Below, piece by piece: positions 51,012-53,272 of a DNA stretch of 63,348 nt. The stretch is from Gemmatimonadota bacterium. GTDB taxonomy: Bacteria > Gemmatimonadota > Gemmatimonadetes > Longimicrobiales > Gaopeijiaceae. Position 1 is the stretch's first letter; the number at the start of each line of letters is the position of its first letter. The stretch spans positions 1 through 63,348 of the forward strand of contig DQPL01000078.1 in assembly GCA_015664885.1 (NCBI GenBank), read 5' to 3'. Made by a program: the position numbers and the translations under genes. The notes below the pieces were generated by a model that worked only from the letters and a program-made list of their open reading frames with translations, searched no databases and was not told the DNA's origin.

Positions 51012-51647
51012 CTACTGGAAGGTTTCAGGGAAGCACGTCTCGAGAAGCTCACGGATCGTCGCGTGAACCTGCTCGGGCGTCCCGCGGGCATCAAGCACTT
51101 GCACGCCCGGCTCCGTCTCCGCCAACGCAAGATACCCTGCGCGCACGGACTGGAGGAAGCCATCCCCCTCCTTTTCGATGCGGTCCGGTTCCATACCGCC
51201 CCGGCGCTGACGATCACCGGCCACCTCGGCCGGCAGATCGAGCACGATGTACAGGTCCGGCCTCAGGCCTCCCGTCGCGATGCGCAGGCCGTCCCTCACG
51301 TCCCCCAGATCCAACCCCCGACCGTACCCCTGGTACGCGAGCGTGGAGAGCGCGAAGCGGTCCGCCAGTACGACCTGGCCGTCTTCGAGCGCGGGCCGAA
51401 CGATGTCGTGGACGAACGCCGCCCGGGCCGCGAGGATGAGCAAGAGCTCGGACTCGGCGGGCATCTCCAGGTCGCCACGATCGAGCACGATCTCGCGGAT
51501 CGCCTCACCCACCGGCGTACCTCCGGGTTCGCGGGCGAGAATATGCGGGATCTCGCGGGCAGTGAGCCATGACGACAGGAGGGCGGCCTGCGTGGTCTTG
51601 CCCACGCCGTCGCCGCCCTCCAATACAATGAAGCGTCCCTCTGTCAT
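51012..51647 (-). CDS. tmk: Thymidylate kinase
   Basis: Phosphorylates dTMP to dTDP. At 211 residues it has the usual size. P-loop: VLEGGDGVGKTTQAALL; DR motif: ADRFALSTLAYQGYGRGLDL; LID region: RRGGMEPDRIEKEGDGF. It is the first gene after the large structured element and is followed by the S41 protease gene with a 36-base gap. Confidence 0.96.
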   Translation of the reverse strand: MTEGRFIVLEGGDGVGKTTQAALLSSWLTAREIPHILAREPGGTPVGEAIREIVLDRGDLEMPAESELLLILAARAAFVHDIVRPALEDGQVVLADRFALSTLAYQGYGRGLDLGDVRDGLRIATGGLRPDLYIVLDLPAEVAGDRQRRGGMEPDRIEKEGDGFLQSVRAGYLALAETEPGVQVLDARGTPEQVHATIRELLETCFPETFQ

Positions 51648-51651
51648 GGAC

Positions 51652-51958
51652 AGAAGGCGGTTGAAGAAGAAGTACAGCGGGCCGCGTTGGGGATGCCACG
51701 GCCCCAGATCCTAGGCGGAGCGACGACGCCATAGCCATCGCTATCGCTAGGAGCCCCAACGACGGAGATGGGGCCGTGCCACCCCAACCCACATACTTGT
51801 TTGTTCATTCCATCACGGTGTTGGGCACATGGTGGTTGCGCGGTTGATCCTGCGTCTCTCCTCGTCGCCGTAGCGCTGCTACGACTCCTCTTTGTTCCTT
51901 GCCTGAACGCGCGCAAGCATCATGTGCGCGGCCCGCTGTACTTCTTCAACAGCCTTCT
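51652..51958. repeat. 307-base structured element: outer inverted repeat enclosing two long hairpins
   Basis: The outer arms are 51652-51686 and 51927-51958: 21 bases at the inner end pair perfectly, then a 3-base indel, then 10 of 11. Hairpin 1 (51687-51787) abuts the left arm: about 20-base arms at 51687-51706 and 51768-51787 (one mismatch, one indel), an inner TCCTAG/CTAGGA pair and an apical ATAGC-CATC-GCTAT. Hairpin 2 (51826-51926) abuts the right arm: 17-base arms with two mismatches (51826-51842, 51910-51926). A 38-base linker separates the hairpins. The element exactly fills the gap between the ino1 stop and the tmk start. It may be a miniature transposable element or a structured RNA; it encodes no recognisable protein. 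Confidence 0.8.
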
Positions 51959-53272
51959 TTAGTCGTAGTACTCGGTGCCGAGGTGAGTCACCATGTCCTC
52001 GTGCATCATCCAGCGAAGCGTGTTCTTCAGCTTCCAGTGCTGAATGAAGATGTCGTGCTCTGGATACAGCCCCGGCGCGGTCTGCGGCGCTTTGAAGTAG
52101 AACGAGAGCCACTCCTGAATCCCGCCCATGCCCGCCCGCGATGCGAGGTCCAGGAAGAGCGCCAGGTCCAGCACGATGGGTGCGGCGAGGATCGAGTCGC
52201 GGCAGAGGAAATCGACCTTGATCTGCATCGGGTACCCCATCCATCCGAAGATGTCGATGTTGTCCCAACCCTCCTTGTTGTCACGACGCGGCGGGTAGTA
52301 GTTGATCCGCACTTTGTGGTACAAGTCGCCGTACAGCGTCGGGTAGAGGTCCGGCTGCAGAATGTGCTCGAGCGCGCCGAGTTTCGACTCCTCCTTCGTC
52401 TTGAACGATTCGGGGTCGTCGAGCACCTCGCCATCGCGATTGCCGAGGATGTTGGTGCTGAACCACCCCGAGACGCCGAGCATGCGCGTCTTGAAGCCCG
52501 GCGCCAGGATCGTCTTTATGAGGGTCTGGCCCGTCTTGAAGTCCTTACCGCAGATGGGCACGCCGTTGTCGGCGGCGAGCTGCTCGAGCACGGTCACGTC
52601 CGCGGACAGGTTGGGCGCACCGTTGGCGTAGGGCACACCCTCCATCAACGCGGCATAGGCGTACAACATGCTGGGTGCGATGCCGGGGTCATCGTCACGC
52701 ATCGCCTGCTCGAAGGACTCGAGGGTCTCGTGCACCGCACCGGGGCGGAGGAAGACCTCGGTCGATGCACACCAAACCATCACGAGGCGCTCGCAGCCGT
52801 TTTCCTCCTTGAAGCGGCGGATGTCGGCCCGGATCTCCTCGGCCTGCTCCATCTTGGTGCCCGATTTCTTGTTCGTGCCGTCGAGCTTCTTCACGTAGTC
52901 GGTGTCGAACGCCGCCGACATCGGCTTGATGGCCGACAGGAAGTCCTTGATCGGATCGAGGTGCTTCTCCTTTTGTAGAACCCCGGCATTCAGCGCGCTC
53001 GTGTAGCCGTCGTCGGGAATCGGGTCCCAGCTGCCAAACACGAGGTCCTCGAGGCCGGCGAGCGGAACGAAGTCTTTGATGAGCGGGGTCCGGCCGTCGG
53101 TACGCTTGCCCAACCGAATCCTGTTCATCTGGGTCAAGGAGCCGATGGGCTCGGCGAGACCACGGCGCACCGCTTCCACGCCGGCGACGAACGTCGTGGC
53201 GACGGCCCCGAAACCGGGCAAGAGTACGCCGAGCTTGCCTTCGGCCGGACGGATCTCAGATGGCTGCTTCAC
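51959..53272 (-). CDS. Inositol-3-phosphate synthase
   Basis: The 437-residue NAD-dependent enzyme makes inositol phosphate from glucose-6-phosphate. It has the Rossmann start KLGVLLPGFGAVATTFVAGVEAV, VMVWCASTE, GVPICGKDFKTGQTLIKT (a hallmark of MIPS) and SWFSTNILGNRDG-like GVSGWFSTNILGNRDGEVLDDP, followed by LPTLYGDLYH-like PTLYGDLYHKVRINYYPPRRDNKEGWDNID. The product would feed inositol lipids or compatible solutes. Its stop codon touches the edge of the structured element. Confidence 0.94.
   Translation of the reverse strand: MKQPSEIRPAEGKLGVLLPGFGAVATTFVAGVEAVRRGLAEPIGSLTQMNRIRLGKRTDGRTPLIKDFVPLAGLEDLVFGSWDPIPDDGYTSALNAGVLQKEKHLDPIKDFLSAIKPMSAAFDTDYVKKLDGTNKKSGTKMEQAEEIRADIRRFKEENGCERLVMVWCASTEVFLRPGAVHETLESFEQAMRDDDPGIAPSMLYAYAALMEGVPYANGAPNLSADVTVLEQLAADNGVPICGKDFKTGQTLIKTILAPGFKTRMLGVSGWFSTNILGNRDGEVLDDPESFKTKEESKLGALEHILQPDLYPTLYGDLYHKVRINYYPPRRDNKEGWDNIDIFGWMGYPMQIKVDFLCRDSILAAPIVLDLALFLDLASRAGMGGIQEWLSFYFKAPQTAPGLYPEHDIFIQHWKLKNTLRWMMHEDMVTHLGTEYYD

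Follow-up and report, generated by a model that had tools for sequence, protein, structure and literature searches.

The 307-nt element at positions 51652–51958 of the window (the whole stretch of DNA analysed, 63,348 nt in length) is very probably one copy of a family of non-autonomous DNA transposons (MITEs) of Gemmatimonadota, which is moved by helper transposases and tolerated at stop codons. This is a new MITE family. Its conserved double-hairpin interior is unusual, its ends are modular, it is frequently inserted at stop codons, and DUF772-type transposases are likely to mobilise it. The mobility of the family is well supported. A MITE-like element had been among the candidates of the original prediction, and this candidate was confirmed: the members are short, non-coding and present in multiple dispersed copies, they have terminal inverted repeats and a TA duplication, empty sites exist in a same-genus genome, and transposons with matching ends were revealed.

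In the window, the element sits between tmk (dTMP kinase; 51012–51647) and an ino1-like gene (inositol-phosphate synthase-like, with a weak NCBIfam match below the cut-off; 51959–53272), both on the minus strand. The TAA stop of ino1 (51959–51961) is at the element junction, so that the predicted filling of the ino1-tmk gap holds on this side, where the gene ends directly against the element, but not on the other, where the tmk start lies 4 nt away (51648–51651). This copy has decayed TA flanks, and its insertion is therefore probably not recent.

The predicted fold of 51652–51958 consists of an outer stem around two long hairpins, as originally proposed. The minimum free energy of the region 51640–51970 is −163.3 kcal/mol, while shuffled sequences gave a mean of −119.0 (sd 5.1; z −8.7), none of the 100 being equally good. 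The outer arms (51649–51686 and 51927–51964, 38 nt) are 82% complementary, and their parts at 51652–51686 and 51927–51958 are 89% identical according to BLAST. The latter are the terminal inverted repeats, both of type A: the right one is GAAGGCTGTTGAAGAAGTACAGCGGGCCGCG on the minus strand, and the left one, GAAGGCGGTTGAAGAAGAAGTACAGCGGGCCGCG on the plus strand, differs from this family form by a 3-nt insertion and one change. Hairpin 1 (H1, about 104 nt, 51686–51789) has its arms at 51690–51711 and 51764–51785, is assigned as sense on the plus strand from its strand bias, and was recognised by covariance model R1 with 116 bits. Hairpin 2 (H2, 51825–51927; arms 51825–51842 and 51910–51927) is its inverted homologue, likewise with covariation, and is assigned as sense on the minus strand from its strand bias. 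The hairpins were first described as abutting; in fact they are separated by a linker of about 35–38 nt (roughly 51790–51824), which is poorly conserved, absent from some relatives and able to form its own weak stem.

Both blastn and the covariance model detected at least 11 copies in the genome that contains the window (a Gemmatimonadota MAG, as judged from the relatives of ino1). Further copies were revealed by blastn in 22 out of 59 related genomes and by the covariance model in 29 out of 298 genomes sampled across the phylum; 24 of these 29, our own genome included, belong to the same bacterial family. The ordered layout recurs in dozens of copies, which confirms that it did not arise by chance. 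The copies vary in length from about 160 to 430 bp, contain no transposase gene and adjoin many unrelated genes, on either side. Some have a single hairpin (L012, L231, L313, L314, L316–L319); one of them, the 167-bp relative L012 from our own genome (G000:C131:2031-2197), has a different end type, CTAGTGTGCCTGAACACAAGTACG. A pattern search revealed 58 type D and 32 type A ends in the same-genus genome G001 and 66 type F ends in G008. No match indicating a plasmid, phage or viral home of the element was found.

This is a large repeat family of Gemmatimonadota for which we found no entry in a named collection, and its copies are often located at the ends of assembled contigs. Type A ends in particular are frequently within about 150 bp of contig ends (G014, G016, G027 and G237-like contig starts; e.g., G014:C21:79-97, G027:C222:102-137), as if the repeats break the assemblies. 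Solitary end repeats without a partner also occur (L020, G000:C24:3002-3029; L017, G000:C5:114915) and are possible remnants of deleted copies, and in L174 two end repeats stand back to back.

In most copies the outer 31 bp or so form inverted arms with TA on both sides. The flanking tetramers are mainly CTAG and TTAG, combined in various ways, consistent with a YTAR target and a 2-bp TA duplication, the first base of the element being G. A 4-bp CTAG duplication is not favoured, since the two flanks of a copy may differ, e.g., CTAG/TTAG and CTAG/CTAA. To find empty sites, the two flanks of a copy were joined in silico and looked for as a continuous sequence in relatives. Clean empty sites were revealed in G001 at ino1-tmk (GACTAGACCATG) and at ybeY (GCCTAGCC), and in more distant relatives the ino1-tmk gaps are also short and arm-less. 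The original prediction could have failed if the arms were unpaired in homologous ino1-tmk gaps; the arm-less gaps are empty sites instead.

The outer repeats can be grouped into about eight types by sequence, while the inner 10 bp or so and the hairpins are shared; a single interior carries different ends. Using the PF05598 (DUF772) profile, we detected transposons with the ends TA-GAAGGCTGTTGAA in G016 (best NCBIfam match IS1182, below the cut-off; the frame is truncated), TA-GGAGCCCGTGG in G001 (best match IS1182, below the cut-off) and TA-GGGAAGCTCTGCACA in G008 (best match IS5, above the cut-off). Three MITE end types match these transposon ends, only over the outer 11–17 bp, and for two of them, in G016 and in G001, the MITE and the transposon share a genome. 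End types D and F yielded no helper; their paired ends in the examined loci enclosed only further MITEs. The H1 model revealed no hairpin within the transposon loci, and the interior is therefore not simply a shortened IS. Our own genome gave no match to PF05598 or PF13751 (DDE_Tnp_1_6); for this reason present-day movement in it is doubtful, and it may hold an orphan population of the element.

Copies of the family are often inserted at the ends of genes. In 32 out of 58 resolved elements, the junction coincides with a TAG/TAA stop of a flanking open frame. We compared the three open frames running into each junction and found one dominant frame on 52 sides; 37 of these have it in phase with the TAG/TAA of the junction, and 11 and 4 have it in the other two phases (p 2.8e-8 in a binomial test, with copies counted as independent, which is approximately true for related copies at different sites). 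The junction stops were on the left in 14 cases and on the right in 23, without a clear orientation bias. For three out of ten junction frames Pfam gave no match; not every long open frame in GC-rich DNA is a gene. The named genes ending at junctions include those for YbeY, PTA and an M50 peptidase, the ino1 stop being at such a junction likewise, and some elements lie between convergent genes that both end there (M50 peptidase and metallo-beta-lactamase in L270). The element starts with G, and TA followed by this base therefore restores TAG; insertion at a stop codon would be tolerated for this reason, the gene keeping its product and gaining a hairpin structure at its 3′ flank. The excess of stop codons may reflect a preference of the transposase for such sites or the purging of other insertions.

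By sequence comparison, H1 and H2 are inverted homologues, because the H1 covariance model matches H2 on the opposite strand in other genera (up to 61.8 bits) and because H1 aligns with the reverse complement of H2 at higher scores (mean 13.6, best 37) than with H2 on the same strand (mean 2.4, best 17) or than symmetric shuffles do (mean 4.1, best 21). The hairpins covary strongly, as the original prediction had proposed to check: their pairing is conserved despite many two-sided changes, none of 500 shuffles was as good, and sliding the pairing partner abolished the signal. On the homologous strand, there are 25 G-T against 6 A-C mismatches when the set is reduced at 85% identity; 68–71% of the unpaired bases are purines. 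This points to the maintenance of each hairpin as a folded strand, RNA or single-stranded DNA, although the sequences are related and the counts small.

The same pairing could arise without any selection on the fold if the changes in one arm were copied to the other by arm-templated repair or template switching in palindromic DNA, the interior being functionless. We consider this a real possibility, if somewhat short of probable. It would account for H2 cells with two-sided changes numbering 47 and those with one-sided changes only 1, for the many double changes that are transversions, where no passage through G-U is possible, and for copy L008 (G000:C64:39915-40017), in which H1 has the opposite orientation at its usual place between the ends and H2 is unchanged in direction. 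It does not predict that the wobble mismatches are biased to one strand, oppositely in H1 and H2 as expected from their inverted homology, nor does it predict the cross-genus conservation of loop bases, which repair of the arms is not expected to preserve, although both arguments are weakened by the relatedness of the sequences.

It seems improbable that the element is mainly a structured RNA locus, i.e., a processed RNA or a 3′-UTR regulator of ino1-tmk conserved there for its RNA function. The stable fold, the strong hairpin covariation, the purine-rich loops with wobble bias on one strand of each hairpin and the position inside a likely transcript all agree with an RNA. However, the element is missing at ino1-tmk from the same-genus genome and from other relatives, and these empty sites rule out a regulator specific to this locus; copies neighbour numerous unrelated genes, on either side; and the search of Rfam gave only sub-threshold matches, with no family at or above the gathering score. 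No named family with this layout, of which the original prediction knew none, was found in Rfam or in open-access papers. A structured RNA fits as the cargo of a MITE and not as a locus-specific regulator.

A REPIN, i.e., two inverted REP hairpins moved by a Y1 (RAYT) transposase, had also been suggested and resembles the element in its two inverted homologous hairpins and many intergenic copies, but we regard it as extremely unlikely, since the REPIN system needs a Y1 transposase and Y1_Tnp matches were absent from all six carrier genomes searched (control genomes were positive), and since the element has long terminal inverted repeats, duplicates TA and shares its ends with DDE transposons, whereas REPINs are not known to have long terminal repeats or a TA duplication. 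An integron attC site was rejected as well: it requires RYYYAAC ... GTTRRRY, whereas H1, read on either strand, has GTT at its start and AAC at its end.

DUF772-type DDE transposases (IS1182/IS5 group) would move the element in trans, recognising the outer 11–18 bp or so of the terminal repeats. Different repeat types would answer to different transposases, and one interior could thereby spread under several helpers. With less confidence, we infer a function for the hairpins: each may be kept as a folded strand, either as RNA in the ino1-tmk transcript or as single-stranded DNA during transposition. More speculatively still, the family could be a transposon-borne structured RNA, a selfish element that, with its insertion at stop codons, is adapted to mRNA 3′ ends and shared among helpers by exchanging end repeats; we consider this less likely than not. 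If it is true, the two inverted modules of about 100 nt ensure that any transcript crossing the element, whatever the direction of insertion, has one copy in the sense orientation. MITEs are usually regarded as decayed IS ends bound to one transposase; the family described here keeps a single folded interior, whereas at least three DUF772 transposons have ends that match its own. It offers a testable case of a parasite that occupies a site where it does almost no harm, and of a MITE whose folded interior is subject to conservation.

MITEs of the IS1182 type (PMC3852290) and MITEs inserting at CTAG/YTAA (PMC3189936) are already on record. The ISMac2 MITEs of Methanosarcina acetivorans (160 and 169 bp, with 25–26-bp terminal repeats, and attributed to an IS1182-family transposase; PMC3852290) are by their description likewise short, non-coding and IS1182-linked, whereas the Gemmatimonadota family has several end types (matching IS1182-like and IS5 transposons), duplicates 2 bp (TA) and has a conserved interior with two hairpins. 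MITEPsy1 of Pseudomonas syringae, considered here along with ISPsy2, is a MITE (100 bp, 18-bp repeats, with a reported 4-bp duplication) that inserts at CTAG or YTAA and has IS-like ends (PMC3189936, accessible part of the text). It shares with our family the CTAG-type target and the resemblance of its ends to an IS; inner hairpins and an excess of stop codons are not described for it in that part of the source. IS1272, a member of the IS1182 family, moves by stem-loop-replacing transposition, in which stem-loops are targeted and no duplication is left (PMC5678879). It belongs to the same broad transposase family as our candidate helpers but differs in that the Gemmatimonadota elements have a CTAG/YTAR target and duplicate TA. 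By analogy, its affinity for inverted repeats could explain the exchange of ends, and stem-loop replacement is one possible route to it.

ERIC and Correia elements are simpler palindromes and are not known to have a repeat around two inverted homologous hairpins. By description they resemble our family in being palindromic MITEs of transcribed regions; the stability of mRNA is altered by ERIC located at the 3′ ends of genes, and RNase III cleaves Correia (reviewed in PMC10969869). In the open-access literature, we found no described MITE with such an interior, several kinds of ends or an excess of stop codons.

It should be mentioned that extra mini-hairpins of about 25–30 nt occupy up to six positions within the element, located close to its ends, in its stems and at its tips. 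They were observed in L182 (G001:C27:4940-5371), L002, L006, L058–L060, L183, L186, L317 and L320–L329. A strict stem search for mini-hairpins outside the element gave zero matches in the window. The mini-hairpins have similar feet (GGGCACC ... GGTCGC or the reverse complement) and stems that differ yet pair; they are a nested family of palindromes.
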